DNA of 64,000 nt, taken from contig NC_088304.1 of assembly GCF_032854445.1 (NCBI RefSeq), positions 6,149,704 through 6,213,703 of the forward strand, in the 5' to 3' direction. Numbering within the stretch: the first letter of the stretch is position 1; the number at the start of each line of letters is the position of its first letter. Positions 18,665-52,553 of the stretch are shown here, one piece after another. Under the pieces are notes generated by a model. That model was not told the DNA's origin and did not search any database. It worked only from the letters and a program-made list of their open reading frames with translations. The DNA comes from Liolophura sinensis. Lineage: Eukaryota > Mollusca > Polyplacophora > Chitonida > Chitonidae. The translations under genes and the position numbers were made by a program.

Positions 18665-21633
18665 ATGTTAAAGCTGTGTGCCCTCCTCTTACTACCGGCT
18701 GCGTTGGTGAGTTCACGATTTACTGAATTTTATTTTACTAGATTTATATGATGTCTGATATAACACTGAAATGCTTTATGTGCATTTCGAAACATTTTGT
18801 GTTTTGTTTCTTGTGTCAATGCATAAGCCGATGGGTATCAAGTGTTTCTAAATAGGTTTCTATGGCCTTTATCTATTACTCCTTGCTCACTCTCCGTCAC
18901 TTTTGTGTGTTTCAAAATTCCAGTAGTGAATAGAACTCCTTGTCTTTCGTGTATGTATATATATATACATTCAGAATACATACCATAGATCATACAACCT
19001 TGTATCTAGGCACACCTTGCACAACCATTCAAAGCCTACCTCAAATTTAACGTTTGTCTCCTTGTTTATGTCCACGTTACATTAAACAGTTTCTTTTTGT
19101 TTTGCAGGCTATGTCATATTACGAAGACGAGGCGGGTAAGAATGGATTAAATTTGTTTACTTACATCTTTGATTGGCAGCGAGGCCCATTGGCTTAGGAG
19201 CTTTTCACCAATGCGGCCGCTGTGAGTTAAAGTCCAGTTCATGCTGGCTTCCTCTCCGCCCATACGTGGAAAGGTCTGCCAGCAGCCTGCGAATCGTCGC
19301 GGGTTTCCCCGGGCTCTATACCGGAAAATATTCTTGAACACGGCGAAAAACACCAATCAAAAGATAAATAAACACATCTCCGATGTCTTTAACTCTGTAG
19401 TCCAAAATTTTTCATTTCTTCGAAGGTGGATAGACTTGAGGATTGGCTTTTTTTCGTCAATGACTGATCTTATAAGGAATTCAGTTAAACATTCCTCAGA
19501 GATATCCAAGTCATATTCATGTTTTGCGAAAACAAAACAGTAAATTGCCCTCTTTCACTGATAATGCCCCTTTGCCTTGATATAGATTTATCCAAATCCC
19601 ATATTAAGCCTACCTCATTTAGTACATTTAAAAACTAGTCCGATGGCGGGCAGGGTCGATTCAATTGAGGCCAATAGGGAGTAATTACTTCAGCAACTGT
19701 CAGATGTAAATGCTTTCCTCTCTTATTATCTCTGTGTTGATTAGCCTACCCGTCATCGACAGTTATTTAACTCCTGTAGTTTTTCATGTTGTATTGTGAG
19801 TATCGGCAATTATCGTGTGTTAGCATCCAGGCACTAAACACTGCCAGGGTGTAAATAGGATTTGAAAATAGCGGGCCGGGCCATGAAACTATCTAATTGT
19901 ACAGTAACAGCTTCTGAGTATAGCGTCTAACGACATAATCACCATGAATCGTGTCCCTGAAAAAAAAAAGAATTTCTCAAATTACTTTATGACGAATTGT
20001 ATGCCCCTAGGTCAGTAATAGCATATGGTGATTATTGTGAAATAAGATTTTGTTTCTTTCTTGTTCTTTCTACAGCGGCAAAGATTAAAAAAAAAGAAAA
20101 AGAAAAACAACCGCTTCTATACAACCGGGTCGTTATAGGCAACAAGTCTCGGTTGATCACAATTGTCTTAAATTTTTAGAGTTCCATTTAAAGGGCGACA
20201 ACCCGCTGACAAAATGGCTGCTTTTTTGTTGTAAATATCGTTTCTTTAAATGTACATATCTACCTCACACATGCATAGCGATAACTATTATTTTCGTTTC
20301 CTTTCAAGTGAATCAAGAGAAATAGAAATAACATTAAATGTTTTTTAGCATCGGTACGGGCAAGTTCTAGCAATCTCCAATGTGGATGAACACATTTTTT
20401 TTTTCAAGTGCTAAATTTACTAATCATAAATTAAAGTAATGCATTTTCCCTTTTCTTGTAGCACTCGATATGATAGCCAGAGACACGTCTTTGAAGAAAG
20501 GTATGTGTCCAGTTTGTGTTGGTTATCTGTATTAACCTGTTAGTGTTTCAGCTACTCCATCAGTTAAACGCCTCTTAATTATGTCGTATTAAATTTAGAA
20601 CTAGTGTAATGAAACAAACGCAAAGTCATTCAGTTTAATTGCTAAGCTATAATTAAGACGACATTCGCAAAAGTTTTATTTCCTGATCTGATTGCTGATC
20701 AATAACTCTGGCTAAAATCGATTACTGGATGACTACTGTTTTAATGAAAAAAAAAGTAAATACGTGTCTTGTATTACTTTCACTTTCGTTTCTAGGTTGT
20801 GGGGGTAAGAACGCCGATATCGCCTTCGTGATTGACAACTCTGCCAGTATTTGGTCTGTAGATTTCTACAAACAGATACGTTTTGTCCAGGATTTCGTCA
20901 AAGTTTTCAACATTGCCCCAGACAAAGTGAGAATCGCTGCTGTCTCGTTCGCAGACGGCGTCTACTATCGTGGTGCGTTCCGATTCGACGCCTACAAAGA
21001 CGAAGCTTCCGTCATTGACGCCATTTCTAGAATCAAATACCTCCATGGTTCATCGACGAAAACAGACGAAGCTTTGGACTTCCTGAGAACCAAAGTTTTC
21101 CCCGAGTCGCTGGCGAACCCCAACCGACAGGATGCTGCTCGTATCGGGATCGTCCTGACTGACGGCAAGTCCACGTATGGGGACAGGACAGCCGTGGCAG
21201 CAGCCAGAGTCAAAAAAGAGTCCAAAGCACTGATGTTTGCCATCGGTGTCGGGAAGAAAGTGTCTCCAGCAGAACTTCACACTATCGCCTCCGGAGACGA
21301 CTACGTCTTCCAAGTCGACAACTACGACGCGCTGGAATCTATCAAGAATGTACTGGGAATAAAGATCTGTGAAGGTAAGATTAACGAAAAGTGCTATTTG
21401 TTTTTAAACCCTGGTTTATGTGAGTTAAGTATTTTATGTACAAATTGTACCGGTGATTTACATCTCATGCTTAATGTATTTGTTTATAAAATTTTAATCC
21501 AACTAAAATGCACGGCGTTAGTCCACTGTATATGAATGGTTGGTTGAGCATACATATATATGTATATATATAGCTCAAGCTCTTTTGTGTAGTATCTTTA
21601 TAATTATAAGGTTGTGAGATCAAATACCCATGC

Positions 21634-21668
<35 letters not shown>

Positions 21669-22717
21669 TACATTAAAATTGGTGAAAAAGGCTGTTTCCA
21701 TGTATTAAAATTTGTTCAAATTTGACACAATTTCTAATCACCCTTTTTTGTTTATTTATAGTGCCAACCACACCGCCACCGAAGGAGCAACGTGAGTACA
21801 CCCCCTACTATGATTCGGATTGCTAACTGCATATTTTAAAGTTCAGGCAGATTTAATGGCCTCGTTTCGAAGCCCGTGACCGTTTGGCGATGTGTGGCGG
21901 TTTGTCTTTGAGATTGTTTAACCACTAAATATGATTGCTTTGACACAAGTGTTCTTTTCCACGATGTACAATCCAAAAAAAAGAAGAAAAAAAAGGAAAA
22001 AAGAAAAACAAGATGGAGCTTACACTTCGATAACCATTAACTAAAACAAAGAAGCTGTTTCCTTTATTTAAGGCAAGAATGCATTGTAAATATAAACTAG
22101 AATAATTCTACCCTTCTGACGAATACAAAGTGAAAGGTGTATATGTTTTTGATGTGTTTCCAGCTTGTGGCGTTGTGAACCCTGCTGATGTCGTCCTCGT
22201 CTACGACTCCACGGAGGTTGGACCCTCGGGGATTTCCGACATCCAGAGAGGTGTGACCGCCTTCGTGCAGACAGATGAGATGCAGAACCCGAACATGCGG
22301 GTGGGTCTCATCTCAGGAGATTGCCCCGAGGTGGGCAGCTTCCCGTTGAACAGATACACCGACAAGTCCCAAATCCCCAAACTCTTTGACAGCCTGCCCT
22401 ATTCAGAGTTAGACGCCCTTGTCGGTGAGCTCCGACGCGACGGCTTCCACCCAGAAAACGGCGGGAGAAAGAACGCCCGCCATATTGGAATCTTGATCGT
22501 CACCGGCAAGCCGCAAAATCCCAAAGCCGTTAGGAGGCAGGCGGCCAAAGCCAAGAAAGAAGGTATCGAGCTGTTTGTGGTTGGGGCCGGCAAAGTGGTG
22601 GACCCTGGTTTCTTGAAGAGCTTGGCCAGTGAACCTGTTGAGAGCCACATCATCTTGGGATCTGATTACTCGAACTTTGGTTTGGTGGGGAGGGGAACTG
22701 GCTGCCAGGATATGTGA
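18665..22717 (+). CDS. Gene A: secreted protein with two VWA domains
   Basis: Six coding exons: 18665-18706, 19108-19135, 20462-20500, 20796-21374, 21762-21791 and 22164-22717, joined by GT/AG introns of phase 0, 1, 1, 1, 1. The product is 423 residues. Exons 1 and 2 give a signal peptide (MLKLCALLLLPAALAMSYYE). Exon 4 is VWA1: Cys38, then ADIAFVIDNSAS with MIDAS residues D50-S52-S54, the Thr region GSSTKTDEA and LTDGKS. Exon 5 is a 10-residue linker (VPTTPPPKEQ). Exon 6 is VWA2; its MIDAS is degenerate (VLVYDSTEVG) and LTDG is replaced by IVTGK. No membrane anchor is seen. VWA domains bind protein ligands in the extracellular matrix, so a matrix or adhesion role is inferred. Convergent with gene B. 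Splice sites were read by eye. Confidence 0.87.
19181..19372 (+). mobile_element. SINE family 1 in intron 2 of gene A
   Basis: Diverged copy: GAGGCCCATTGGCTTAGGAG head, CTGGCTTCCTCTCCGCCCAT body, AAATATTCTTGAACACGGCG, then AACACCAATCAA and a short tail. Part of the body before AAATATTC is deleted. Confidence 0.85.
21638..21664. repeat. (TA)n microsatellite in intron 4 of gene A
   Basis: About 13 TA steps between the two VWA exons. A shorter ATATATGTATATATATA run lies at about 21553-21570. Confidence 0.9.
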
Positions 22718-23502
22718 GAGTAAGTAACACACATTGTCTTAAGTCACAACAAGCTTGATGCAATTTGTCCGCCATGCTGCGTCTGGGATTTCTCAAACTT
22801 CATACTGTATATTCATACTATAATGTTGTTATTTGTTGTGCAATATGAGTGTATGTTTTCGTCTGTTTCAATTTTTTTACTTAATCGCTAAATAGTGACA
22901 TATACTAACAGAACAAATAAATGACAGCATGAAAACAATCGGAGATGAATAAGCATTACATGTCAACAACTAAAAATTGTCTTAATCTAACGCTGTTGAC
23001 TCTTAAGATTAGCTGTCAGAGAATTATGATTGGACAACAGATAAAAAGAATTGTTTTTATTAAAATTTTGCCTTGTTCTTATTTCAGAGACGAAGAACTT
23101 CCAGTAAGACATCTTTGAACATTTTTCGACAGATGTGCCATTTAACTCCACGTTATGAATCAAGGATCACATTTCCATACATTTATTTTCGTAAAACGAG
23201 TATTTCAATTACAGTATATTTAAGGGATTTTATTTGTCCTATCGTTTGTGCATCTCCATGTTTGTATCTTTTATTTATCTCTTGTTCATTTTGTAAATTA
23301 TTTATTGTCCTATATTTTCTCGTTCGAAGTGAAATGATTTGTCATTTAAGATTCACAGAATACTCTTAAATTTACATGTGTTTTTCACGCTACAAAAAGA
23401 TGTACTTCAATAGTGTTGAAGAGAAACCGGTCTGTATTTTTCTCTTTATAAGGTTGTTTCCTTTTTGACGACGTGAAGTTCGGCTTCATGCATCTCATGT
23501 GC

Positions 23503-23508
23503 AATAAA
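23503..23508 (+). terminator. Polyadenylation signal of gene A
   Basis: AATAAA about 790 bp after the stop codon at 22715-22717. A 3' UTR intron is possible: GTAAGT follows the stop closely (22720-22725) and an acceptor TTATTTCAG ends near 23088. Confidence 0.5.
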
Positions 23509-23942
23509 GATTGAAGTATTTGTGAAGTATATCGTCATGATATTTGTTCATTGTTTCCCTGGGGTGACCCTATCACTAAGATCCTTATCTTCACTTTGTG
23601 GAAGTATGACTCCAGCTTTTTGGACAAAATTTAGGAGATTCGACGTCTTTCTGTGGGGGTCTTGGTCACAAATAATGGGGGTACCCCAGTCCTCTACAAA
23701 AGGACACAAATCTTGTAACTCATAAACAGCAGTGCCCTCTACGTTCTCGGTTACGGTTCCAGCTATGAATATTCATGACCACTTGTTATGTTATTTAAAT
23801 TACTGTTAGTGCTATTTACATAGTTAGAGGGCGCTGCTGTTATCAGTTGTAAGATTTGTTCCCATTTATAGAAGGCCGTAGAACCCCACAAACGATCTGC
23901 ATGCCGGAGCGCTTATATTTCCACTTAGCTCGTTGGAGGTTT

Positions 23943-24090
23943 TGATTTATTTGACCGGTTTTTTACGCCGTACTTAAGAATATTTCACTTATACGACGGC
24001 GGCCAGCATTATTGTGGGAGGAAAGCGGGCAGAGCCCGGGGGAAACCCACGACCATCCGCAGGTTCCTGACAGACCTTCCCACCTCGTGG
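23943..24090 (-). mobile_element. SINE family 1, 3' half
   Basis: ATTTATTTGACCGGTTTTTT (tail) through ACGCCGTACTTAAGAATATT and the GGAAACCCACGACCATCCGC body, ending at GACCTTCCCACC. Head absent. Confidence 0.85.
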
Positions 24091-24139
24091 GCAGCACTCA
24101 GCAGCAACAAATATGATTTACAGGCTGAGTTATAGTTTT

Positions 24140-24345
24140 CAGGGTGAATATGTGTGACGTAGGTTAGCGAGTTATTTGCCAAATGCCGGTGGTTTTCTCA
24201 GCTCTCCTCCACATTGGCCGCGGAAACAAATGATTCTACGGGGACATTTCCCGACCATATATTGACCAGTGACGTCTGTGACCTTCTATTGCTGGGTTCG
24301 AACTCGCGACCTCATACAGTTGGTCAAGGGCCGGATAGTCGCAGT
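24140..24345 (-). mobile_element. tRNA-derived repeat (family 5, unnamed)
   Basis: On the minus strand a tRNA-like segment has a good B-box (GCGAGTTCGAACCC) downstream of CTTGCACACTGCGACTATCC, followed by a body of about 150 bp. A related sequence lies at about 30900-31050 on the plus strand (GTGAGTTCAAAACTGGC, GGGAATTTGTAGACTT), and a weaker one near 59390-59480. This is a family by comparison only. Confidence 0.4.
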
Positions 24346-24621
24346 GTGCAAGCGCTTTAATCGTCTGGTCTGATCCAACGAGGGTACGCGGTTCACTTGC
24401 ATTTAGAATGTCGGTTTATATCGTGAAGTCAGTTACCTTACTCCTTACAGAGCATGCGTCGCTCTCCATCTTTCGCTTTACATCAAGGCCGTCACTAGGC
24501 AAGCTTGACCTTTAGAGCCTGTGAGACGCACGTAGGCGTGTTTAGGCTTTATCAGCATTCAACAGTTTTAAGCTCTTGTTAGAATCATTTTGTACATACT
24601 CTAGAAAAAGAAAGAATAAAT

Positions 24622-24962
24622 GCGTGGCACTTAACGTCGTAGTTAGCAATTTTCCAGTCGTATGACGACGAGGAGTGATTAGGTGTATGTATACATATAC
24701 TGTGTCTTCTTGTGGAAAGGCAGATCCATGCCACCAAAGTGCTGCCGTCACTGAATTTCATGCCGAAGACACCAGATATGACAACCTACCGAGTTACACT
24801 ATACTGATACCGGGCCAACCAGTCCTGTTTCCTTATTCTAACCCATTAGTGCTGAGCACAAAAGCAGGCAGCAATAAGTACCATTTTTGAAGTCTTTGAT
24901 ATGACCCGACCTTTTATCCCGGGTCTCGAGGCGGACGCTCTAACCATTAGGCCACCGAAGCG
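24622..24962 (-). mobile_element. SINE family 2 copy
   Basis: The head at the right end reads, on the minus strand, CGCTTCGGTGGCCTAATGGT followed by TAGAGCGTCCGCCTCGAGAC: a tRNA-like 5' part with A-box TGGCCTAATGG. The body runs leftwards through GTCGTCATACGACTGG to ACGACGTTAAGTGCCACGC. Confidence 0.8.
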
Positions 24963-24983
24963 GTTCAATCTAGAAAACGAGAA

Positions 24984-25011
24984 TGTATATATATATATAT
25001 ATATATATATA
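24984..25011. repeat. (TA)n microsatellite
   Basis: About 14 TA steps, immediately upstream of the family-2 SINE head. Confidence 0.92.
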
Positions 25012-25086
25012 ATGAGACAACGGTTGAGACTGATTGTTCTCCCCTCGTCCAACATTGTTCGTCTTAATTAACAACACGACAATCCC

Positions 25087-25170
25087 TGCTTGGTGTTGTC
25101 GTGTGGTACAGACCAATTTGTGTTGTCGTGTGGTACAGACCGATTTGTGTTGTCCTGTGGTACAGACTGA
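25087..25170. repeat. Tandem repeat, 27-bp unit, three copies
   Basis: Three copies of GTGTTGTCGTGTGGTACAGA plus CCAATTT or CCGATTT. Confidence 0.88.
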
Positions 25171-25265
25171 GACGAAGTCTATTCCACAATACTGTCCATC
25201 CATACATTTTCACACCTTTCTTAAAATATTTACCCTTACACATTCGGAGCCATGATGGATCTAAC

Positions 25266-25500
25266 CTGTACAAAACAGCTGGGCCCTTCACCCGTAGAAA
25301 ACAGCTGGGCCTCTCACCTCTACAAAACAGATGGCCCTATCACCCGTAGAAAACAGCTGGGCCTATCACCCGTAGAAAACAGCTGGGCCTCTTACCTGTA
25401 CCAAACAGCTGGGCCTCTAACCCGTCCAAAACATCTGGTCCTCTAACCCGTTCAAAAATCTTTGCCTCCAAACCCGTACAAATTATCCTGGGCCTCTAAT
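25266..25500. repeat. Tandem repeat, 26-bp unit, about nine copies
   Basis: Copies of AAACAGCTGGGCCTCTCACC plus CGTAGA or a variant, diverging progressively to the right and stopping at the edge of the recombinase remnant. Confidence 0.9.
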
Positions 25501-25917: not shown

Positions 25918-26269
25918 ATCGTGTCATTACTCTATTACTTTGCAAGTTCTTGCCGCACACTTCAGATAACTATTTTAAACATCTCGACATTAACTGACTC
26001 TTTTTTATTAGTCGACTTGTCGTACCTTCTTTTTGTTACCTTCTAACACCGTTCTAACCTCACTGTTCTCTGTTGGAGATTCTACCCCCAAAATCTCATG
26101 AACTTATCTAACGCTATAGAACGCATTCACATCGCTCGCGGGAGATTCAGATATCTGTCCATTTGCAATCAAACATATCACTCAAGATAGCGGCTTAATG
26201 GGAAGCCCAGCGGGAACTGAGTTATTTTCAGCCTATTTCTTCCAAGCCCAAAGAACCATTCTTATACTT

Positions 26270-32456: not shown

Positions 32457-35400
32457 TTAACAGTTGGGGTTCTTGGTAGTCGGTGCCGGGGTGGGTTTGG
32501 GGGTGGGTTTCGGAGTCGACTCTGCATAAGTTCAAAACACTTAATTAGACCACCGGCAGATCGTATGACGTGACCTGTCGATGTATTCTCACAAGTTTTA
32601 AAACAGATTTGTAAATGTTTAGTTATTTATTTAAACATAACACTGTTGCCCTGCATTTTGCCTTTCTACAAATGTTGTTGCCCATGTTCCGTTATAGTAA
32701 CTAGAAAGGTGCAACTCCTAACCAAACGGTAAACGTCACATGGAGTTAGCAGAAACCAGTGGCGTCACGCACTTGGCGGTTATGCAGCTGGCTTATTGTT
32801 CATTGGCGGGCATTAGTAACGCACGTCAACGAAAACAAAACATAAATACACGCGCTGAAGGTAGAGTTTTGAAGTGGATAACATAATAATGCTTCAGTTT
32901 TCATCGTCTGTTTAACATGGAAAAATGTTCGAAAACACTCAGCAACCAACCACCATCTAAAAAACCCATATGTGTGATTTTACACCAATTTATTTTATTT
33001 ATATATAAATAAAATATATATATATATCTTCCCAAATTTGCCAGCATTTTATCGGTAAATTTACAGCATATTTCTATGGTGTGGGTCAAACAACTTACCT
33101 GGCTTTTCGCAGAGCTTGTGGACGAACTCTGAGTAATAGGAGGCCAGTTCTGCAGGGCTCTTAACGTGAATGACGTGCTTGGGGGAGCTAGCAATACTGT
33201 TGAGCAGTTTGGAGTCCGTACTGCCGATCCCAATGGCGTAGAGTTCGATATTGTTCATCTTAGCCTTCTCCGCTTCCACAAGGAGTCCCTTGGGGTCTCG
33301 TATTTTGGCGGGAACAACAACAACGCCCACGCGCCGCGCGTCCTTCCGGCCGCCGTTCTTCTCTAAGAAAGCCTGTGACCAGAGTTCCTTGACAAGAGGT
33401 CTGATTTCTGCTTGAGCCAGCCTGTCCAGGTAATTACCGATGGCAGCCTGGAGGAATAAAAAATATGTCAGATGACAAAGTTACATGTTGGTGTGTCTCA
33501 CAGAAGTTTAAGGGAAGGGTATACACCAAAAATAAAAAAGAGATAAAGCCTGCTGTACCAGTCATAATTAGATAGCTTCTCTTTGGCATCTAGTCTTAAA
33601 CATTCCCTTGGTCCTGTGCAAACATTACCCTTCATTGGTGCGGCACAAATGCAGCACAGACTCAAAAGTTCTACCAGTTTTAAAGGTATAAATAGCTTGT
33701 GGCGTGTACACGTCTATGTATCTTAGCTATTTAATGAAAAGTTATTATTTGGCGTCGACTTTTATAAACCTGACGTCAAGTCAGGACATTGAGCAAGTCA
33801 TTAGACTGATGTCAAAGCGTTTTGGATTTGAGCGCCAGGTGGATACCGTACAGTAAGGGTATACTTTCGCTAAGGCGAAAAGGTTTCAACACTGGATTAA
33901 CATTTGAAATCAGAGCTTATCATTACTGATTGGGAAGGGTTGTTTGCAAATACAGTTGTTGCTAAGTGGAATACCTACACACCCACTAATTTAGTCAAAA
34001 TTACATTCCTTCACTATACACAATACACAAATAGCCTGCACTGAAAACTGAACACAGATTATCTTGAAATGAAATTAGACCCCCACTCAAATTTGTACCG
34101 GCGAATATTACCGCTCTTATATATACGCAGAATACCTCTTTCCTCTATACGTGTAAAAGTCGAACTACTGGACTAATGCAGCCGTGGGTCAAGATCTGTG
34201 AGTTTTGGACCACACTGATTTGACAACATTTACATCAGCGAGTAAGTGAGTGAGTGAGTGAGTGTTTGGGGTTTAACGTGGTACTTAACAATTTTTCAGT
34301 CATATGACGACGAAGGAATCCTTAGAGTGCGTGTAATGTGCCTCGTTGTTGCAGGGCGGATTTCCATCGCTCTTTTATCTAGTGCTGCTTCACTGAGACG
34401 ACTTACCGAAGGCAAGTAAGCCGACCCGCCCGAGCCATTATACTGATACGGGTCAACCAATCGTTGCACTATCCCCTTCATGCTGAACCCCAAACGAGAA
34501 AGTTAAACTTCCCCTTTTAAGGTCTTAGGTTTGACTCGACCCAGGACTGACCCTGGATCTACGGCTCCATATTGAAGCTGAATTCAGCACAATATTTCAA
34601 AAACGTCTACCTTGTCAATAAATTCGCCAAGAGCAAACCCTCTGTAGTTAACACATTCGCCGGTAAGAAGACCAACACGAAGGCCTTCGTATAGAGAAAT
34701 GCCTTGTTCTCTGACCACGCCAATCATGAAGTCGAACACGGCTCGGACGTCAACAATGTCCATGCGCGAGGAATCCATGGTGACGATGACGTCAGGGTTA
34801 ATGTCACCGCATGCTAGAAAAATAAACAATTCACATTAAAAGCGCATGTAAAACGATGTACTTCAAGCACTATGGGACACGATTTGAAGCTAAATCAATC
34901 TTTAATAATATATAAATTAAATAAACTAAATCAATGTTTTTTCTGACAAAACTGAATTAATGACAAAACAAAGATTTTAGCATGTGACAAGAATAACCGG
35001 TTATGTGTTTTATTTTTGTAGCACTACTTCGTTTCGATAATTCACTCCTGTATGTCTCTTGTATATTTCTTTTCAACTTATGGGGAGTAGAGTACTGAAC
35101 ACAACTTACGCTGAATATTTGGCTCTGTGGTCGGCACTGCAATGAAGAGAAACAACAATATAAGGTTTAAATGGATGAACTCAAGTACAAAAGTATGAAC
35201 AAAATGGTCTCCGCTTATAGTGAATGTTTGTCCAAATGTGGAGGGTGTTTTTTATTTGGGCAATTAATGAAAAGTTAAACCCTTCTTACATTCGCTACCG
35301 CAAATAGATCTATTTACTTCTTAAACAATGGAAAGGTGGAATAGCAGTATTCGCAGATGTTTGTTCTAAAACGCCCTCCACGTGAAAACTCAAAAAAGAG

Positions 35401-38400
35401 ACGAAATCTAGTTATTTTTCACAACAATCACAAAAAGTCCCCTCATATGGCTATCACTAAAATTCTCAAATGACCATTTTGAGAAGATAGCTGATAGGCG
35501 TGTGGTGTTTTGAGAAGATAGCTGATTGGCGTGTGGTGTTTTGTGAAGATAGCTGATTGGCGTGTGGTGTTTTGAGAATATAGCTGATTGGCGTGTTGTG
35601 TTGAGCAGAAAGCTGATTGGCGTGTGGTGTTTTGAGCAGATAGCTAATTAGCTATCTGATCACTATTGAATAAATCTGCCATACCTCAAATTCAGCTTAG
35701 GCGAGGCATATCCTAGACTCGCCTATTTCTTACACCAGCCAATCAGCGACAATTCAGTATCCCTTAAGGGATGAGAAAAAAATCCTGATAAAATGAAAGA
35801 AAATAAACAGAAACGTCTGATAGAGAACTTACTGATGCACGCAGTAGCTGCTAGGATATCCTTGATTTCCTGTAGAGCGGCATAATCGGTCACACTGAAC
35901 ACGTATTTCATCGAGGTTGCCATGGACTTCAGGTCCTCAAGACTAATCTTGTCACCAACACCAATGGCAAAGATGGTGACGCCGTCTTTCTTTGTCAAGG
36001 CGATTTCTTCATTTAGACTAGGAATTGCTTTCTCATCGGTCCTACCATCTGTAACGATGATTTCAATCTTTTCTACGTCCGGGCGAGCAGTACTGAAAAA
36101 TTTCTTTCTGGCGTACTTCACGGCGAGGTCCGTCCGTGTGGATGCTCCCCACACCCACTGGACAGAGTCCAATTTATCTAGGAGAGACTGTTCATCTGTG
36201 TACTCGTCGAAGTTGAAGACAAACTGCTTGTTGACATCACTTCCATACGTCAGCAGGGAGAATCTCACTTTTTCTGGCGAGATCTCAAAACTAGAGACCA
36301 AATTCTTCAGGAAGGGCATGAGCTTGTCGTTAAAAGCCGGGGGGAAGATGCTGGCAGATGAATCCAGGACTAAGGAGATGTCAGCCGGCATTCCACACAC
36401 TGAAAAACAGGGAGGGGCAATAAACGAGGGGTTTTCGTGGATCAATAATTCATTCATGGATTAATCAATGGCTGGTTGATGTTTCGTGACAGTCACTTTG
36501 CTTGTTGTCGATTAATGGCTCTTCTCATATGGTTAAAATATTGCAAGTGTGGCGTTAAGCCATAATCAGTCATTTATTCATTCAATTAATGGTCCATAAT
36601 CATTCAGTGAGGGCCACGTGGCCGAGGGGGGTAGCAGGCCAGCACGGCGAATGACTCAGGAGCCTCCCACCAATGTGGTCGCTATGAGTTCGTTCAGCTC
36701 ATGCTGGCTTCCTCTCCGGCTGTACGTGGAAAGGTCTGCCACCAACTGTGGATGGTCGTGGGTTTCCCCCAGACTTTGCCCGGTTCCCTCCCACCATAAC
36801 GCTGGCCGCCAACAAATAAATAACCATTTAATCATTCACTGATTTAATTATTGGACTGAAAATTAACATAAATAGTCAAAGAATAGTTAAACCAATGTTA
36901 CTTATTGTTTTTTCTCGCACTCTACTCATTGTGGATGGTCGTGGGTTTCCCCCAGACTTTGCCCGGTTCCCTCCCACCATAAGGCAGGCCGCCAACAAAT
37001 AGATAATCATTTAATCATTCACTGATTTAATTATTGGACTGAAAATTAACATGAATAGTCAAAGAATAGTTGGGGCCTCCGTGACTCAGTTGATTAGCGC
37101 GCTAGCGCAGCGTAATGACCCAGGAGTCTCTCACCAATGCGGTCGCTGTGAGTTCAAGTCCAGCTCATGCTGACTTCCTCTCCGGCCGTATGTGGGAAGG
37201 TCTGCCTGCAACCTGCGGATGGTCGTGGGTTTCCCCCGGGCTGTGCCCGGTTTCCACCCACCATAATGCTGGCCGCCGTCGTATAAGTGAAATATTCTTG
37301 AGTATGGCGTAAAACACCAATCAAATAAATAAATAAATAAATCAAAGAATAGTTAAACCAAAGTTACTTATTGTTTTTTCCTCGCACTCTACTCATTGTG
37401 AGCTTCATCCCGATCATCGCAAAGCATCATGCGCAAGGCTGCAAAAGCCGTGACATCGCCCTTTATAATATTTCATGACGTCTTCCACTCAGAACTCATG
37501 TTAAGCGAATGGCTCATGTTATAAGATAAGACAAAAACTTGACCGCCGTGCCGACGGACGGTATGTAAGTATGCTTGGGGTTTAATGTCGTACTTAATTT
37601 GTCAATCATATAACGATGAAATACTGAAGTATCATGCCGAAGGCACCGGACAGGGCAAGCCGCCCAGCCCTGTTTCCTTGCTCTAACCTCGCAGTGTTGA
37701 GCGCCACGTGAGCCAGCAACAAAAAACACCTTAAATCGTTTGGTAGGACCCGGGTCTCCCGACTTCGAGGCGGACGCTCTAACCATTATACCACCGAAGT
37801 GCTCTGAATGACTTACAAGATAAGTAATCACAGCTAAAAGGCAAACTGACGGCAGCTTAAAAAATAACAAGAAACTGCTGTTTAAGGGAGAACGTCTTAA
37901 TCCGATGCCATCTGGTTATTTTAAAGAGATACAGCGGATCAAACTATGTGAAAAAATCTCACCTTTCTCCACGGCGGATGTCACATGAATGCTGCCTGAA
38001 AACGAAGCAAACATTGGGAAAAATATTATTATTAGAGATTAAACAATATCATTTCTTATATTATGAACATAGAGAGCATACAAAAAGTACGCTTTCATTC
38101 CCTATATACCTACTTAATTCAATGCAATTGTCAAAATAAACTGTAAAATTATCACTATTAGGAATTAAACCTGTTACAAAAATTAGAAATTTACTACACA
38201 AACTTCATCAGGCATTTACTTCTATATAAACATAAGCGCGAAGGAAAAAACCCCAGAAATATTTGATTACTGAATTCATTACTGAAAAACTGTAAAACCT
38301 AAACCTCTAACGCATCAACTGGCGCTGGATCATTGTGCACTTTTTTCCATGTACATGGTTTGTCAGGTGCATGGTTTGTCAGGTGTACGCTTTGTGAGGT

Positions 38401-39521
38401 GCACGGTTTGTGAGGTGCACGGTTCGTGAGGTGCATATTTTGTCAGATCCATGGTTTGTCAGGTGCATGGTTTGCCAGGTGTACGCTTTGTGAGGAGTAC
38501 GCTTTGTGAGGTGCACGGTTTGTGAGGTGCACGGTTTGTGAGGTGCACGGTTCGTGAGGTGCATAGTTTGTCAGATCCATGGTTTGCCAGGTGTACGCTT
38601 TGTGAGGTGCACAGTTTGTGAGGTGTACGCTTCGTGAGGTGCATAGTTTGTCAGATCCATGGATTGTTAGATGCACGCTTTGTCAGGTATAATGACAAGG
38701 TGCAGTGCGTTTCTGCTTGCACTGTTCTATTTATGCTACTCTTGAGACCAGAATAAAATACAACTGAAATAAAATAAACTTGAAACCAAATGTATTACAT
38801 CGGGTTTGCTAAAAAAATCATCAATTTCGTCTTACGGTTAGGAGTTACTTACCTAAGAGAACGAAGATCAACGCTAGCACCTGCAAAGATAAAACACATG
38901 ACAGTAGCAAAATCTAAAAACATACCAGTTTATAAACATGAAAAGATATCGAAGAAGTCCCCACTACTGATAATGTAGAGCAGAAAGAAGTCCCCACTAC
39001 TGATAATGTGGCGCTGAAAAAAGTCCCCACTACTGATGATGTGATGCAGAAAGAAGTCCCCACTACTGATGATGTGGCGCAGAAAGAAGTCCCCACTACT
39101 GATAATGTAGCACAGAAAGAAGTCTCAACTACTGACAATGTGGCGCGGAATCCATTCTCAACGAAAAGTTACCTATAGACACACCAGTACATTGGAAACA
39201 GCCAGAAATGTTGCAAATGTACACTTTTTATTTTAGCCTCGTCAATGCTAGTAGAGTGCAAGCCTATTTTCCTTACATTATCATTAATGACAAAAAAAAA
39301 GACATTGATCATTGAAGGCTTTAAAAACGAGGGGACAAATAAATGAATGAATAAATAAATAAATAAATAAATAAACAAATAAATAACCTTAACAATGCTA
39401 TTCACAAAATGCGACGTTGTAACAGTTTCGAAAGTTAAAAGCACGTATGTAACAATGCTTTAACAATTTGTCACATAAAGAAAGTACATACCGCTAGCGG
39501 ACTGGAACGTGGCCTTGTCAT
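32457..39521 (-). CDS. Gene B: secreted two-VWA protein with Pro/Thr-rich tail
   Basis: Eight exons on the minus strand: 39492-39521, 38853-38880, 37963-37995, 35833-36399, 35110-35136, 34611-34813, 33099-33447 and 32457-32521. All have GT/AG borders and matching phases (0,1,1,1,1,0,1), giving 433 residues. Exons 1-2 encode the signal peptide MTRPRSSPLAVLALIFVLLG. Exon 4 is VWA1: Cys32, ADISLVLDSSAS with MIDAS D43-S45-S47, WGASTRTD and VTDGRTDE. Exon 5 is a short linker (MPTTEPNIQ). Exons 6-7 form VWA2, with a degenerate MIDAS (VTMDSSRMD) and no TDG; an intron splits this domain after FIDK. Exon 8 is a 22-residue tail (STPKPTPKPTPAPTT) ending in Cys. Exon plan and sequence make it a paralogue of gene A (both have NGGRK[DN]AR in VWA2). 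Extracellular matrix role inferred. Introns are full of minisatellites and SINEs. Confidence 0.86.
34246..34575 (-). mobile_element. SINE family 2 copy in intron 6 of gene B
   Basis: Tail at the left: (GTGA)n, then TTTGGGGTTTAACGTGGTAC, CAGTCATATGACGACGAAGG, and a body with CGCTCTTTTATCTAGTGCTG. Very similar to 51717-51945, so both belong to one subfamily. Confidence 0.85.
35478..35655. repeat. Minisatellite in intron 4 of gene B, unit about 31 bp
   Basis: Roughly six copies of GATAGCTGATTGGCGTGTGG plus TGTTTTGAGAA. Confidence 0.92.
36528..36592 (+). mobile_element. SINE family 3, 3' fragment
   Basis: TAAAATATTGCAAGTGTGGC then GTTAAGCCATAATCAGTCAT and (ATTC)n, matching the inverted copies at 8.64-8.88 kb. 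Confidence 0.65.
36610..37010 (+). mobile_element. SINE family 1 copy with partial tandem duplication
   Basis: A diverged SINE (head GGGCCACGTGGCCGAGGGGG) ends near 36825. The segment from GTGGATGGTCGTGGGTTTCC through its 3' flank (about 36748-36893) is repeated at about 36928-37070. A 180-bp stretch was thus duplicated in tandem after the SINE inserted. The GTATAAGTGAAATATTC part is deleted in both copies, so they share one origin. Confidence 0.8.
37072..37341 (+). mobile_element. SINE family 1, full-length with 13-bp target-site duplication
   Basis: Best plus-strand reference copy in the window: head GGGGCCTCCGTGACTCAGTT, B-box GTGAGTTCAAGTCC, body, then GTAAAACACCAATCAAATAA and (AAAT)n. 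Flanked by TCAAAGAATAGTT at 37059-37071 and 37342-37354. It lies in intron 3 of gene B. Confidence 0.95.
37573..37802 (-). mobile_element. SINE family 2, full-length copy
   Basis: On the minus strand: head CACTTCGGTGGTATAATGGT, then TAGAGCGTCCGCCTCGAAGT, B-box-like GGGTCCTACC, body GCTCACGTGGCGCTCAACAC, and 3' end AAGTACGACATTAAACCCCA. It shows the whole family 2 order in one copy. Confidence 0.85.
38354..38695. repeat. Minisatellite in intron 2 of gene B, 16-bp unit
   Basis: About 21 copies of GTGCACGGTTTGTGAG and variants (GTGTACGCTTTGTGAG, ATCCATGGTTTGTCAG). Variant units recur in blocks, so a higher-order pattern is present. The open minus frames are due to the repeat. Confidence 0.93.
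38952..39150. repeat. Minisatellite in intron 1 of gene B, 33-bp unit
   Basis: About six copies of GAAGTCCCCACTACTGATAA plus TGTGGCGCAGAAA. Multiple-of-three unit length gives an open minus frame (SVVGTSFCAT repeats), not a gene. Confidence 0.92.
39335..39390. repeat. (AAAT)n microsatellite in intron 1 of gene B
   Basis: Runs of AAATAAATAAATAAAC. Possibly an old SINE tail, but no body is attached. Confidence 0.85.
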
Positions 39522-44205: not shown

Positions 44206-44285
44206 GAAAGAAACGAACCTGTTCATTCCTCTGAGCTATTGGTCTCGCCGCAATCTATTTGTCTCTTGCCAGTGAGAATGAAGGT

Positions 44286-44492
44286 TCTCATGCAGTTTGT
44301 TTGCATATTTGTCATGCAGTTTTGTTTGCATGTTTGTCATGCAGTTTTGTTTGCATGTTTGTCATGCAGTTTTGTTTGCATGTTTGTCATGCAGTTTGTT
44401 TGCATGTTTGTCATGCAGTTTGTTTGCATGTTTGTCATGCAGTTTTGTTTGCATATTTGTCATGCAGTTTGTTTGCATGTTTGTCATACAGT
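44286..44492. repeat. Minisatellite downstream of gene C, 24/25-bp unit
   Basis: About eight copies of GTCATGCAGTTTTGTTTGCA plus TATTT or TGTTT, very uniform, so young or recently homogenised. Three plus frames remain open by chance. Confidence 0.94.
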
Positions 44493-44652
44493 TACTGGAA
44501 GAAGAGCTGTCGTTTATACCGGACAGCCTGGTTTCTTCTCTCCAGAAGCCTGACGTCAGTCGTTCACATGCGTCACTGGCTTTAATTTGGAATGAGGACA
44601 TAAACAAAATGTGCAAAAAACAACATAAACATAGATATAACTTCACACTGTA

Positions 44653-44721: not shown

Positions 44722-47700
44722 TTAGGTAAATAGGTTGATCTCTCGAGCCAGTCTCACTGAGCCGAAGTCAGGAATGAATCCCCCACACAGCATATCAATC
44801 AAGTGGCCATGGATGTCCTCTAGTTTAGTGACGCTATCGGCAGCGATGAAGTACTGACCAAAATCTTCACCAAATAGTTCAATAAGTAGTTCCTTCTCCA
44901 GACCAACCCCAAACCCAATTGCAAAAACTTTAATCCCTAGAAATTTAGCCCTTTTCAATTCGCGCTCAAGCGCTATTTTATCTGTGGGTTGGTCAGATAG
45001 AAACAGTAGCGTTATTTTAGCAGCGGAGTTTCTAGCGCCCTTATCTCCGGAGAATCCCGACATACGTACCTTTCTCATTAAGTCGCTATAGTCGCCCTTC
45101 TCGAAATCCATAAGCTGGTGCTGAAATTCCGTTTTACTAAAGTGGTCTGACAAAGAAATATCATTCTGCTGTGAGCACGAGGTCGTTACTATGGCGACTC
45201 GAGTCGCCTCGGAACCAATGGAAAATGACATCATTAGATTGTTGATGAACTTCAAAATGTGCCACGTGGTGGCCTCGCCGAATCTAGCCGAGTCAACGCC
45301 GAAAACTAAGTCTGTCGGTGCCATTGTCAAACAGTCTGAAAGGAACAGCAAAGGAAAATTATTTCTGTGACACCGTTAATTTTATTCAACAACAGCGGTG
45401 AACACTAAATTGACAGATATTTACTACTGTTGCTATCATTCAGTGAATACACTCGTAATAGCAGTGGCCTATCTCGTCATTCTTTTCTAGATCCGCCACT
45501 GATTAACATGGCTTCATTTTCCTTTATAGGTCTACTTGGGGAATTCCCCGCGACTCGAATCTTTAAAAGTTGCGTGAACCAATGAAATGCAGCAACACAT
45601 CAGCTGTCGTGCGACAAATGTTTACCCAGACTGTGGTAGTTATGTCCCTGGCGAGATTCCCCGCCACACTCAACCCTGCAAAGTTTATCCACTTGCTCAC
45701 TGGTAGGAATATTCTAACAGTATAATAACCCGCTAACCTTTCGGACGAACTTTTCGATTGGTGTTGATTGGTTGTTGTCTTGACGCAAAAGCACAGATTT
45801 TCCAGTGCGAGTCAATGCACATGCAAGCCTTTATACAAACCCACCGTACTTGCCTGACCAGCTTTCCTAAAAAAGTTTTCAGTTCAATAATTTTCAATTA
45901 GTATCCTTCATAGTTCTCTTGTCTGGCTCTCTCTAACGTGGATTCTGTAATGTTGTCAGGTCTTTCAGTCCGGATCACATGCTGCAAACCGTCCAATAAT
46001 ATTTTGTGACGAGACAGGCCGCTGATATCATGCGTGTACTCAGTCAGAGAAATACATAAATTACGCTAGAAGAACCTTTCAGATGGTCATCTCAACAAGA
46101 CTGCATATTAACATGTCAAAAGATATGTGGCAATCAGTAAGTTATGAAAATTCAGCTGATTATTAAGCAAATTGCTTTTAGTATTCCTTTCAATACTTGT
46201 AGATTTACAAATACGGCGGTCAAAATTGTTTTGTTTTTTTTTAAATTTAATTTTCTCCAAACTGAAGTGCTATATTTTCCAAAAAATTTTCCCCTAAAAT
46301 ATTAGTCAACTGTATTGTGAAACGGTCAGACAAAAGTTAGTTATGTAGAGTTATAGTTAGTTATAGATAAGTTTTGTAAATAAAACACATTGCCAACCCA
46401 CATCCCTCCCCCACCTCCATTGCTGTAGGTGTATGCAGTGACGCTGGGCTATGAACAAATACTTACCACCACCATATGACTGATCAGCCATTATTTCCGG
46501 TTTTACTTCAACTGTAGGGAAAATAGAGTACAGTTAAAAACTGGTCGACCATCGACTTAGAACGCCTCTTTATTATTTATGAGTGGTATGCCAATATCGA
46601 ATTTGACGCTTAAATGTAATATGTCCAAAAGCAATTCTTACCAAAGTATTACCTTGGGAAGGTATACCACAATGGCCCGTTAATTACATCGTAAAACGTC
46701 GAAAATCGTTGACCCTTGTAGTAACTGAGCATATATCTGGTTAAATACTTGGCGATTAAATTACTGCAGGTGTTTGAGGCCGAAAGGATCAAACCTATAT
46801 AGACAAGAATTGCCAGCATTGTTAACTTTGTTATGGTTTTGTGATCTGTAACCTATTCGCCAGCAAAGCGTGCAGCTGGAAGTCACGGTGTCACAATTTT
46901 AAGGCAAACATAACCATGAGACATCTTGGCTTCTGTTTTTTTCACTGATGCTGATTTATTACGCTTTTTTTCTGACGTACCAGCGCAAGCTTTTATGGCC
47001 AACTTTTTCTTGATGGATTGTAAAGCATCAAAATCGTCTGTTGTAAAGCGATATTCCTCCATCGGCTCTGAGGCAATAGCATCCAGCTCCTGTTTATCGA
47101 CCTGAGGCCCAATTCCGATCACAAACAGGTTGATGTTCCTGCGGGTCAAGGCCGCTTGCTTCACGGTCGCTTTTGTGTCATGTGACAGGCCATCGGTCAA
47201 AATGATTCCGATGCGGACTGCGTCAGGACGATCATTACTAGGCTGAAAGGCGGTCTCCCGCATGAATTTCAGGGCTAGGTCGGTGAAGGTATTACCTCCC
47301 GTGTAGGTAACGTTCATAATGGCATCCTGAAGAGCCGGTTTGGACTGGAAAGACGTCAGTGAGAACTGCGGGTAAGCGTCATCACTGAACGTCAACAGAC
47401 CGACACGCGTCTTGTCCTGTCCGACGTCAAACATGTCCACGACGTCCTTGACGAACTGCAGCTGTTTGTGGTAGTCCTCCATATATATACTGGTGGACGT
47501 GTCCAGAGCGAAAACAACGTCAGCCGGTTTCCCTCCACAAGCTACAATAGTGACAGTAAACTATAAAGGGTTGGTTTATCATCGTACGTTATTGATCACA
47601 CATCCGACATCATTGCTGATTTCACAGTAGTATTTATAACTAAAGAATGACTTATTTCATATTGTCACCTAGCGACGACTGATACTGAGTTTGCCCAGGG

Positions 47701-50700
47701 CACTCTAGTTTCTACCACCTAGTCATATAAGTGACAAATTTCTTGAGCTCCCCGTTAGACAACAATTAACCAATCAATTACAAAAATATAAAGTAGGCAA
47801 GAAAGTTTCAATAATATGTATTTGTTGTACGTCGCATTTATTTATGTATTTATTCATGCCTTACGCCGTACTCAGTAGTATTTCACTTGTACGCCGACGA
47901 CCAACATTATGATGAGAGGAAACAGGATGAGAGGAAACAGAGATGAATCGACGACCATCTACGGGTTGCTTAACGTCGTATTCAAGAATATTTCACTAAC
48001 TAAAGAGCGGTTAGAATTTTGGTTGGATAAAATCGAACCCAGGACAAACCATCTCATCTTACCAGTCACCTGAGAAATCATCTGACTGAAGGTCGCGTCC
48101 AAGCCAGCGGGCGAGATTGTTAATCTCCAAAATGGTTAATCTAACAAAGCTGAGTTAATTTGCTTTTCAAAGAGCAAGGGTAGATATGTAAGGAGACGAC
48201 AAATACAACGCTGTCGGTTTATACGGTATCTCCTTAAAGTGTGACTTCAACAAGTGTACAAGGAGAAGTCCTAAGTACTGTAACCAGCTGTAACCGGATG
48301 TTCAATTATATTCTTTTCCCCCACCGTTACAATGCCCCCCACCCCCCCAACGTTAAACATCACACGGACTGGATATTTCCATGGTTTTCTTATACACGTG
48401 AGTGTTAATCTCGCCGACGACGTATGGTTCAGCTGGCAAGGCTTAAGTTTATTGTGGCCACAAAAAATTGAACACAAATGTAATAACCTATCCTTTCGGT
48501 TTCTTTTTTAAAATTAAAATTGATATACTAAAAGCTAGCGCGTAGTAGTATGCATGCATGATGAAGCTATGATGACCAGGTATATTAAAAATAAAGACCC
48601 AGCTTTTTTTGCTCAAACTCCTCAAACACACCATTACCCCTTGTCATGAATGCAGTATATGTGGATTGTCTTCTGAGAATCTGAAGACGTTGTACCGAGA
48701 AACTGAGAACCTTGAACAAATTTCATCAATCAACTCTCCGCGGAAACTGAGACACCCTTTTAGGAAGAATTGGATGACCTATATAGGAATAACAAGAAAT
48801 TAGGGGAATACGCTTGATCAATTGTTCGAGTAAGCTTTACAAATAATACTAGAAATTTCATCAAGTTTCTTTTCACATACCCTCCTGCATGTAAATCGTT
48901 TATCCAAACACATGCGCCTGTACAAAAATGGGCGTGAATCTGGGTTGAATATTGCAGTGGTTGAGTGGGGTGAAGATACGCAATGTTGATTGAATCCACT
49001 GCTCCTCAGGGTACTTAATTAGTGATTCACACCACATGGTACAAAACAGTAGTAAGTATAAAAACACAGACCTTCCTTGATGACTTCAGAGATTTCCGTA
49101 ACTGCTGGGTGAATCGGCTTCAGCTGTTCTTCCGCTGTAAGAAATCATAGCAATACAATTCCATATTCTCATTTATTTTCAATATATGTCTCCGACGAGT
49201 AAAAAAGAAAGGGTGATCATTAAGTATACGAGATTGCATACATATAGAGACGTCTGAGTTTGAGAAATGCATGTAGCAGTGGAGGAGAATCTGCAGTACA
49301 GAGTTGACTTCCATAAATCATATACCGTGTTACACAATTCCGTTTGTTTCACATGTAACAGAGGCTTACGATTTCATACTTGCATAAGTCACTCAATTTG
49401 GATATATTTACTAAGATCAAATGCTATTCGTATTATGCAAAACTTGAATGATTCTAGTTGTGAACACTTCAAATTTGATTACCCTTTTACGTAATATATC
49501 TTACCTTTGCACGCTTTGATGGCAAGTTTATCTTTTATAGATGACAAAGAAAAGAAATCATCGATCTGAAGAATAAAGTTTTCCTTGGGCTCACTGCCAA
49601 TGGCAGCCAGCTCGTCTTCGTCCACGCCCCATCCGATGCCAACAACGAACATAATAATACCCTCTTCTCTAGCAAGATACGCCTCTTCTTTGGTCCTGTC
49701 TGGGGTGTTAGACAGCCCGTCAGTGAGGACGATCCCTATTTTTGGTACACCCGGTCGGACATTATCGTCACTGAGCGCCACCTTGCGGAGATATTTCAAA
49801 GCTTTGTCCGTGTGCGTTCCACCTCCGTAGTTCTTGATGTTATCCACTGCGGCTACTAACGAATCTTTATCCAAGTTGGACCCCAGGTCGAACTGAGGGT
49901 GTACGTCATCGCTGAAGGCAATGGCGCCGACTCGCATTTTGTCCTCTCCAATGTCGAAGATGTCGACGACATCTCGGACAAAACGTATCTGCTCAGCGTA
50001 GTCTTCGGGGTAGATACTACTGGAAGAGTCAAGCACGAAGACGATCTCAGCTGGCTTCCCACCACAATCTGAAAAAAAAGTTCAGAGCAATCAGAAGTCC
50101 TCACATGGATCAACAACTTTGGAAATTTGTGAAAAATTTCGGCAGCGCGCCCTGACCAGTGTGTTAATGTGGTTACGGTTAAGATGCACGCAAGAGCTAC
50201 GGGTTCAACCGTCAACCAATATCGACTTTCCCGGTCAATAATCGCAAGATCAATTCCCAAAACGACATCTAACACAAACCACCAAAGAACAAAGAAAGTG
50301 TATAAAATACGAAAATAGGACGCAGTCATGCAAAGAGAACCATGTTGGAGATTTATGTGTCGAAAATGACATTCGTACACCATCCGTCAACCAAAATGGA
50401 CGTCCCACGTCAATAATCACAAAACCAAATCCAAAAACGACGAATAACCCCAACTATCAAACCAAAGACTGGATCATGCCAAAAGAAGTAGTGAACAGTT
50501 TTCAGTTTGCAGAAATAACTTGTGAGTTAGATTGAAATCGTAACATGACACACGAGAGAGACTATGGTTTCTTTAAATCCAACTAAGGCGAATAAATATC
50601 TCTTACAGCCTTTGCTATATATGTATTGTTTAAAGCTTGCAGATCATTAATATACCGTTTAGTGAATGAGTAGCATCTGGCCTTGACTGGGTGACGACTA

Positions 50701-52553
50701 TGCCTTGGTCATCGGTAGGTAGAGAAACACTAAATGTCTATGAGGCCCTCTACGAGGGGGCATCGTCGTGAGTATGAAGCAAGCAATATAACTGCACTCA
50801 CCATTAACTTTATCGCCCAGCACAACCTGTGAAAAGTAATTAAGCGATACTGATTTCAATGTCGTGACAACAAGCAAGTCTGTGCCACAGAAAAAAGGGA
50901 ATGAAACATTCATCGTTAATTAATCCACCTTCCATAGTTAAATTAACACACACACAATTTATTTGATTGATGTTTTACGCCGTACTCAAGAATATTTCAC
51001 TTATACAACTTCGGCCAGCATTATGGTGGGAGGAAACCGGGCAGGGCCCGGACGAAACCCACTGCTGGCAAACCTTCCCACGTACGGCCGGAGAGGAAGT
51101 CAACATGAGCTGGAGTTGAACTCACAACGACCGCATTGGTAAGAGGCTCCTGTGTCATTACGCTGCGCTAGCGCGCTAACCCAACTGAGCCACGGAGGTC
51201 CACCACACATCTTTATCATCCATGAGTAATTTTATGATGGCAAATTGTTATGTAATTGTATTATATGTACATATTAATTTACCAGAACTCATTCATTTCT
51301 ATACCATCATTGTATACCGTGGCATTTGGCTTACACATAATATTCCCGCCTTTCACCGATGAAAACTTTGGAAGAACACTGGAACTCATGCACAGATAAC
51401 CCTTGCCTTTCACTGTTACAGCAAGTATAAATATATTTGATACCACATTAATCGCGGATGTTAGAGGGCACTGGAAGACAACAGAGCCGTATGCGTAGGA
51501 TTAATGGAAGGCGTGATTTGTTTGATTGTAGCTTAATGCCATACTCAACAACTTTTCCCTTGTGCAAGGGCAGTCAGTCATATGGGTGGAGTGAACCGAA
51601 GTACCCGGCGTGAACCACACAAGTTGCTGACGAAATTTCCCGTGTGTGGAGCAATTTTTTGGTGGAAGATAAAACTGTTTTCAAGGATATTATAAAATAA
51701 ACCAGACCTCTTGAGTGAGTGAGTAAGTGAGTGCGTGCTTGGGGTTTATTGTCGTACTTAACAATTTTTCAGTCATATGACGACGAAGGAATCCTTAGGG
51801 TGCATGCAATGCGCCTCCTTGTTGCAAGACGGAATTCCACCGCTCTTTTATCTAGCCCTGCTTCACTGAGACGCTTTACCGAAGGCAAGTAAGCCCGAAC
51901 CATTATACTGATACGTGTCAACCAATCTTTAATCATTAATCTTCATCATGGCTCTTAGAATAAAATGATACGATTAGCAATGGTCGACCTGACTTCCACA
52001 AACATTTACTTATTTATTTGATTGGTGTTTACGGCGTACTCAAGAATACTTCACTCATACGACGGCGGCCAGCATTATGGTGTGAGGAAACCGGGCAGAG
52101 CCCAGGGGAAACTCATGATCATGTGCAGGTTGCGGCCGTGGAGGAAACCATCATGAACTGGCATTGAACTCACAGTCACTGCATTGGTGAGGCTCCTGGG
52201 TCATTACGCTGCGCTAGCATGCCCTAACCAACTGAGCCACAGAGGCCCCGCTTTAACAAATAGCTGACAAGGCGGTACATATGGTATGGAGTTAGACATC
52301 ACTATAAACATATTAATGCTGGAACGCGCCTGGTTCACTGACATAATCAGGATGTTATCGAAATATTTGCTTACTTGTTTGGTTGATTGATTGTTACTAA
52401 ACATCTTCACGTATCACGTATGAGATCAGTCTTACATTGTTATCATTGTTAATGTCATTGTTCCCCTTATCAAGAGTAACGTAATGATGACTTTACCTGG
52501 AGCAGGAGTGCAGTAGCACGGAACCACAGCAACAACCTGGCTGACGACAACAT
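44722..52553 (-). CDS. Gene C: secreted protein with three VWA domains
   Basis: Seven exons on the minus strand: 52497-52553, 50802-50826, 49505-50068, 49072-49134, 46981-47541, 46467-46511 and 44722-45335, phases 0,1,1,1,1,1, giving 642 residues. Exons 1-2 encode the signal peptide MLSSARLLLWFRATALLLQV. VWA1 (exon 3): CGGKPAEIVFVLDSSSS with MIDAS D41-S43-S45, GGGTHTDKA and LTDGLS. Linker exon 4 (21 residues, PIHPAVTEISEV). VWA2 (exon 5): CGGKPADVVFALDTSTS with MIDAS D250-S252-S254 and LTDGLS; it ends KLAIKACAG, as VWA1 ends KLAIKACKA. Linker exon 6 (VKPEIMADQSYGGG). VWA3 (exon 7) keeps the fold motifs (KVFAIGFGVG) but lacks DxSxS (VFGVDSARF). VWA1 and VWA2 are closest to each other, so an internal exon-pair duplication is likely. 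Donor of exon 4 (GTCTGT) is weak. Confidence 0.86.
45336..46466 (-). other. Intron 6 of gene C
   Basis: Between the last linker exon and VWA3. No repeat family clearly recognised and no further exon. Confidence 0.5.
47837..48110 (-). mobile_element. Diverged V-SINE-like element in intron 4 of gene C
   Basis: TTTATTCATGCCTTACGCCG tail, TCACTTGTACGCCGACGACC, ACGACCATCTACGGGTTGCT; a second tail-like block (AACGTCGTATTCAAGAATAT) follows at about 47970, so two old elements may be joined. Confidence 0.6.
50195..50465 (+). repeat. Dispersed repeat family 4, two copies
   Basis: Copies at 50195-50300 and 50370-50465 share CCGTCAACCAA, GGTCAATAATCGCA or GTCAATAATCACA, and AAAACGACRTYTAACAC. More copies are at 58365-58475 and 59990-60040, with an inverted one at 61705-61825. 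The end (AACGACGTTAAACACAAACC) resembles the SINE tails, so it may be a SINE 3' half. Confidence 0.6.
50957..51201 (-). mobile_element. SINE family 1, full-length copy in intron 1 of gene C
   Basis: ATTTATTTGATTGATGTTTT tail, CTTATACAACTTCGGCCAGC, full body, head GGACCTCCGTGGCTCAGTTG. About 12 bp are missing in the ACGACCATCCGCAGG region. Confidence 0.92.
51515..51645 (-). mobile_element. Diverged V-SINE-like fragment
   Basis: TTGTTTGATTGTAGCTTAAT, GCCATACTCAACAACTTTTC, GAACCACACAAGTTGCTGAC. Same order as family 1 but heavily changed. Confidence 0.5.
51717..51945 (-). mobile_element. SINE family 2 copy in intron 1 of gene C
   Basis: (GTGA)n, TTGGGGTTTATTGTCGTACT, CAGTCATATGACGACGAAGG, CGCTCTTTTATCTAGCCCTG. 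The head end is truncated after ACTGATACGTGTCAACCAAT. Confidence 0.85.
52005..52249 (-). mobile_element. SINE family 1, full-length copy in intron 1 of gene C
   Basis: TTTATTTGATTGGTGTTTAC tail, CATACGACGGCGGCCAGCAT, head GGGGCCTCTGTGGCTCAGTT, B-box GTGAGTTCAATGCC. A piece of the body near the Zn-rich CCTTCCCACG segment is deleted. It ends about 250 bp from the signal-peptide exon. Confidence 0.92.

Follow-up and report, generated by a model that had tools for sequence, protein, structure and literature searches.

Tandem VWA proteins of the chiton Liolophura sinensis with a terminal VWA domain that lacks its metal site

Three genes for proteins with von Willebrand factor type A (VWA) domains, here called A, B and C, lie close together in a 64,000-nucleotide stretch of contig NC_088304.1 of the chiton Liolophura sinensis (assembly GCF_032854445.1; C10:6149704-6213703, C10 being NC_088304.1), referred to below as the window. 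The authors of the assembly at first gave the species as L. japonica and afterwards amended this to L. sinensis (PMC12441733). Do the genes form a local family built from one exon cassette that is still changing, as the first-pass annotation proposed, or do they follow an older and more specific design? Our analysis, which is based throughout on this single genome (609,464,459 bases, 632 contigs), favours the second answer. In our judgement the genes encode secreted proteins, probably of the extracellular matrix, in which short linkers connect VWA domains that possess a complete metal ion-dependent adhesion site (MIDAS), either one or two of them, to a last VWA domain devoid of the metal site. 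Among the tandem-VWA matrix proteins we would class this family as a new variant.

A last VWA domain of a different kind

All three proteins belong to the VWA superfamily (PF00092) by profile match, with E-values of 3e-56 for A, 3e-49 for B and 2e-104 for C, and the modelled fold of the gene C terminal domain agrees with this. The narrower class of MIDAS-type, I domain-like VWA domains takes in their non-terminal domains and leaves out the last domain of each gene. Whereas the former (VWA1 of A and B, VWA1 and VWA2 of C) possess five out of five MIDAS ligands (DxSxS, a Thr or Ser in loop 2 and an Asp in loop 3), terminal domains retain 1-3 of the five in every case (9/9) in an alignment of 49 VWA domains comprising 9 terminal and 40 other rows. 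Common to the same nine are a five-residue deletion in loop 2 of the MIDAS and a Cys where strand beta-2 ends; this Cys is present in 9/9 terminal domains and 0/40 other rows (ISGDC, TGEC and TTSC as compared with SFAD, TYGS and AFSD). Two further terminal domains, located with the gene C sequence as query and read after the alignment had been made, combine MIDAS loss, deletion and Cys in the same manner, bringing the count to 11/11 on two scaffolds. This difference in kind between the last VWA and the others had been missed when all VWA domains of the cluster were first treated as copies of one cassette.

The terminal domains included in our tree stem from three places (C10 6.17-6.26 Mb, C10 15.69 Mb and C8 34.43-34.51 Mb) and form a single clade, with support of 100/99 for nine sequences and 100/97 for eleven. 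The approximately unbiased (AU) test rejects a grouping of the gene C terminal domain with VWA1 and VWA2 of the same gene (p = 0.014) and a grouping of the terminal domains of A and its relative D with the other domains of their own genes (p = 0.00014). Identity of terminal domains between subfamilies amounts to 18-36%. For one pair from C8 the ratio of non-synonymous to synonymous substitution rates (dN/dS) is 0.22, and because of this value the terminal domain is, as far as such a ratio can tell, maintained in the lineage of that pair. AlphaFold models of the terminal domains of C and D are VWA folds (predicted local distance difference test, pLDDT, 79 and 78; predicted template modelling score, pTM, 0.79 and 0.80), and in both of them the region of about residues 53-80, which takes in the new Cys as well as what used to be beta-3 and loop 2, is of low confidence. 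The nearest solved structures found by Foldseek for the gene C terminal domain are integrin I domains, the A3 and A1 domains of von Willebrand factor (vWF), collagen VI and the mussel byssus protein PTMP1.

We propose that the intact VWA domains would attach via a divalent ion to a ligand in the matrix, for instance collagen, by analogy with PTMP1 and integrin I domains. The last domain we regard as a retained pseudo-VWA that was passed down as one unit from the ancestor of the family: its fold is still there, the loops of the MIDAS are gone and a conserved third Cys is new. Such a domain could not hold a metal in the usual way, and its odd Cys could join two chains. In gene C seven cysteines lie outside the putative signal peptide (two for each VWA with a MIDAS, plus three in the terminal domain), and it is on account of this odd number that we tentatively consider a disulphide-linked dimer, the end piece of which would join two ligand-binding arms. 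Still more speculative is the wider idea that a VWA domain was converted into an end module once, in an ancestor, that its new Cys covalently links secreted proteins into multivalent matrix cross-linkers and that the module later came to occupy two or more scaffolds. Should the terminal pseudo-VWA indeed serve in assembly, it would show in a simple and testable way how a domain for adhesion can become one for cross-linking, in a group of animals whose matrix proteins are poorly known.

Exon models of genes A, B and C

The exon models have canonical splice sites that were read directly from the sequence; positions are those of the window.

18665..18706, plus strand: gene A exon 1, putative signal peptide MLKLCALLLLPAAL, 42 nt, ATG followed by a hydrophobic stretch, ends in phase 0, donor gtgagt
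19108..19135, plus strand: gene A exon 2, 28 nt, phase 0-1
20462..20500, plus strand: gene A exon 3, 39 nt, phase 1-1
20796..21374, plus strand: gene A VWA1, 579 nt, phase 1-1, MIDAS intact (DNSAS, T, TDG)
21762..21791, plus strand: gene A linker exon VPTTPPPKEQ, 30 nt, resembling the linkers of B and gene D
22164..22719, plus strand: gene A terminal VWA, about 556 nt, MIDAS lost (DSTEV), extra Cys (ISGDC), frame disturbed near 22685
38853..38880, minus strand: gene B small exon VLALIFVLLG, 28 nt
37963..37995, minus strand: gene B small exon, 33 nt
35833..36399, minus strand: gene B VWA1, 567 nt, MIDAS intact (DSSAS)
35110..35136, minus strand: gene B linker exon PTTEPNIQ, 27 nt
34611..34813, minus strand: gene B terminal VWA, first half, 203 nt, DSSRM, extra Cys (TGEC), ends in phase 0
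33099..33447, minus strand: gene B terminal VWA, second half, 349 nt, followed by a phase-1 donor
52497..52553, minus strand: gene C exon 1, putative signal peptide MLSSARLLLWFRATALLLQ, 57 nt, ATG, ends in phase 0
50802..50826, minus strand: gene C exon 2, 25 nt
49505..50068, minus strand: gene C VWA1, 564 nt, MIDAS intact (DSSSS)
49072..49134, minus strand: gene C linker exon 1, 63 nt
46981..47541, minus strand: gene C VWA2, 561 nt, MIDAS intact (DTSTS), sister of VWA1 (55%)
46467..46511, minus strand: gene C linker exon 2, 45 nt
44722..45335, minus strand: gene C terminal VWA and stop, 614 nt, MIDAS lost (DSARF), extra Cys (TTSC)

Much of the architecture originally described for the cluster is reproduced by these models. 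The interval 18665-52553 runs between the ATG codons of genes A and C, the linker exons of all three genes measure 27-63 nt, and the domain counts of two (A), two (B) and three (C) agree with both exon models and Pfam. Secretion, predicted for these molluscan proteins from the outset, is probable in view of the first exons of A and C, which look hydrophobic by eye. Other statements hold in part: a tiny putative signal-peptide exon ending in phase 0 is present in A and C but was not found for B; VWA domains generally occupy phase 1-1 exons, with the exception of the second VWA of gene B, which is cut by a phase-0 intron; and six of the seven domains open with the Cys of a CG/CGG motif, the third domain of gene C opening with CLT instead.

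Gene C is the sole model that is complete from ATG to stop. Searches for the first exon of gene B, and for tail exons at the 3' ends of A and B, returned many weak candidates, none of them convincing. In the last exon of gene A the frame changes within a G-run near 22685, and the stop shown there is therefore probably a frameshift or an assembly artefact; an alternative frame runs on to AARICE, directly followed by gtaagt, the same type of ending as in gene B. The Pfam search of the A, B and C models yielded only VWA-type families and no collagen or other domain, and a tblastn search of the window for further VWA fragments returned only the exons listed above. Short tandem-repeat tracts at 38443-38682, 38942-39178 and 44282-44553 give rise by chance to long open frames in the neighbourhood of B and C, and an interspersed tRNA-like repeat (gctcagttggttagcgcgctagcgcag...ctggccgccgtcgtataagtgaaatattcttgagtacg) occurs in introns and between genes (copies at 19170-19350, 36600-37350, 50990-51220 and 51950-52260).

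Phase 1-1 exons are established for matrix VWA modules in the exon-shuffling literature. Among the unique VWA exons starting with Cys at loci fetched from the genome (n=41), 34/41 have an AG exactly at the position of a phase-1 acceptor, as compared with 0-3 at neighbouring offsets, so that the Cys start at the phase-1 junction exceeds chance. The cassette is not special to A, B and C. It is common to several distinct clusters and chromosomes, and in a PF00092 profile scan of the genome, in which 150 places were scored among 322 candidates, matches are clustered on C1, C4, C6, C8, C10 and C13. A cluster of phase-1 VWA exons should therefore not be taken too readily for a local family of recent origin; what really marks this family is that live and dead VWA domains follow each other in a fixed order.

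Relatives inside and outside the window

The closest relative of gene A is gene D at C10 15.69 Mb, which is 9.5 Mb away from the window. VWA1 of A is 51% identical to the first VWA of D, the best match of its last domain is the last domain of D (C10:15687127, 36-38% identity), and the two genes group together in the tree with support of 99/96 and 100/96. The linker of D, VPTTPVPTIP, resembles those of A and B. VWA2 of gene C is 55% identical to VWA1 of the same gene, 52% to the C8 cluster, 51% to a further gene, E, and 43% to gene A, and the gene C terminal domain has its best match at C8:34505175 (30%). VWA1 of gene B is about equally close to D, C6, A and C8 (37-40%). When A, B and C are compared with one another, their MIDAS domains share 35-43% identity, values that point to old duplications. 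For the genes on C10 and C8 that supplied the terminal domains, all MIDAS domains likewise fall into one group (93/84).

A purely local family that is still changing, and likewise one of recent expansion, is disfavoured by these identities and by the tree, in which A pairs with D and C is nearer to the C8 cluster and gene E. The reading under which the three genes of the window are not one another's nearest kin, an outcome named beforehand as speaking against a local family, is thus favoured, although the AU test leaves a grouping of A+B+C unrejected (p = 0.25 for the terminal and p = 0.10 for the MIDAS domains). Judged by sequence comparison, the three genes more probably belong to an older chiton family that is not confined to the window.

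The suggestion that the flanking scaffold might hold more copies proved fruitful. When the flank C10:6257500-6276547 was read letter by letter, gene E was found on the minus strand at C10:6261588-6275116, about 48 kb past the window. It consists of two VWA domains, a linker (VEPPKRRPLPSDE) and a terminal pseudo-VWA, the frame of which breaks within a G-run in a similar way as in gene A. At C8:34423152-34505681 there is a cluster of related genes that end in the same type of pseudo-VWA. In one gene pair of this cluster the synonymous divergence (dS) is 0.12 in the VWA exon as opposed to 0.51 in the terminal exon, which suggests exon-wise gene conversion or a mosaic origin. A different arrangement is seen at C4:17963855-18032961, where about 39 units of 1804 bp follow each other head to tail (a pair that was read is 99.7% identical). 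Each unit contains a Thr/Pro-rich exon open reading frame of about 130 aa and a 370-aa exon open reading frame that is Thr/Pro-rich and includes a VWA with decayed MIDAS, and the array would encode a giant mucin-like VWA protein.

Known tandem-VWA proteins and competing explanations

PTMP1 from mussel byssus (PDB 4cn8, 4cn9, 4cnb) is the closest single functional comparison, and in this respect the comparison with byssal matrix proteins, made at first sight of the cluster, was a good one. This mollusc protein is secreted, consists almost wholly of VWA domains in tandem, has cysteines at its N- and C-terminal ends and binds collagen (PMC4754843). Its structure 4cn8 matches both types of chiton domain, with E-values of 2e-38 when gene C is compared and 8e-10 when the terminal domain of A is. 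On sequence grounds the chiton genes are nevertheless not PTMP1, because its two VWA domains both keep the MIDAS, unlike the last domains of A and B, and are mutual sisters (100/100) outside the chiton families; a terminal pseudo-VWA with an extra Cys is absent from it. Collagen VI alpha-3 has the top overall sequence score in the PDB, above PTMP1, because it contains many VWA copies. Its N domains and proteins of the matrilin type likewise carry tandem VWA modules in a matrix context, but the chiton genes differ in domain order and contain only VWA by Pfam. The A domains of vWF can bind ligands without MIDAS metal. A3 and A1 match the fold of the gene C terminal domain (template modelling score about 0.84, Foldseek), whereas architecture and sequence differ and the chiton domain lacks loop 2 and has an additional Cys.

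Were the cluster an ordinary group of matrilin/PTMP1-like matrix genes, the last VWA would be decaying in each gene separately under relaxed selection. The high divergence of the terminal domains and the frame breaks within those of A and E agree with this, but the identical deletion and new Cys in all eleven domains, their single clade and the dN/dS of 0.22 for one pair speak for common descent and retained function, and we regard such decay as unlikely. Recognition proteins of haemolymph or mucosa, or of the gamete surface, diversified by duplication, would fit a large family shaped by gene birth and death, in which some copies are recent and nearly identical and exons on C8 have diverged to different degrees. 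Positive selection, however, is not seen in the informative pairs (dN/dS 0.19-0.24), the closest relatives of known structure serve in matrix and adhesion, and an immune or gamete role appears quite improbable.

Our preferred reading, that of matrix proteins with an inherited end module, has points against it as well. The new Cys lies in or beside a loop of low confidence in both models (pLDDT < 50 around residues 53-56), it could have an intradomain partner in the fourth Cys that D, E and two members from C8 possess, and further cysteines could come from the 3' ends of A and B, for which no convincing tail exon was found. Given the frame breaks in A, E and one C8 copy, pseudogenes or errors of assembly may be present among the members, and a very recent C8 pair has a dN/dS of 0.75, calculated from few changes. 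Long branches may help to unite the terminal domains, the deletion and the Cys being separate evidence.

The least probable of the alternatives is a role in the matrix of shell plates or sclerites as in Pif/BMSP, molluscan secreted proteins with up to four tandem VWA domains (PMC11291548); VWA domains are indeed frequent in molluscan shell proteins. Pif/BMSP are, however, defined by VWA together with chitin-binding domains, while the A, B and C models contain VWA only. In a genome scan for CBM_14, in which the best 150 of 244 candidates were scored and weak exons could be missed, none of the listed matches falls near C10:6.15-6.28 Mb, the nearest one listed on C10 being about 1.3 Mb off. Membership in the Pif/BMSP group is disfavoured on this basis, and a shell role of that kind, one half of the original shell or byssus comparison, lacks support. 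VWA exons do occur near CBM_14 exons at C3:11409890-11411642, C10:26946847-26948663 and C10:8515881-8521730, which are candidate Pif-like genes. At C10:9367916-9368071 a chitin-binding domain is part of an unusually long uninterrupted open frame of 11,299 codons.

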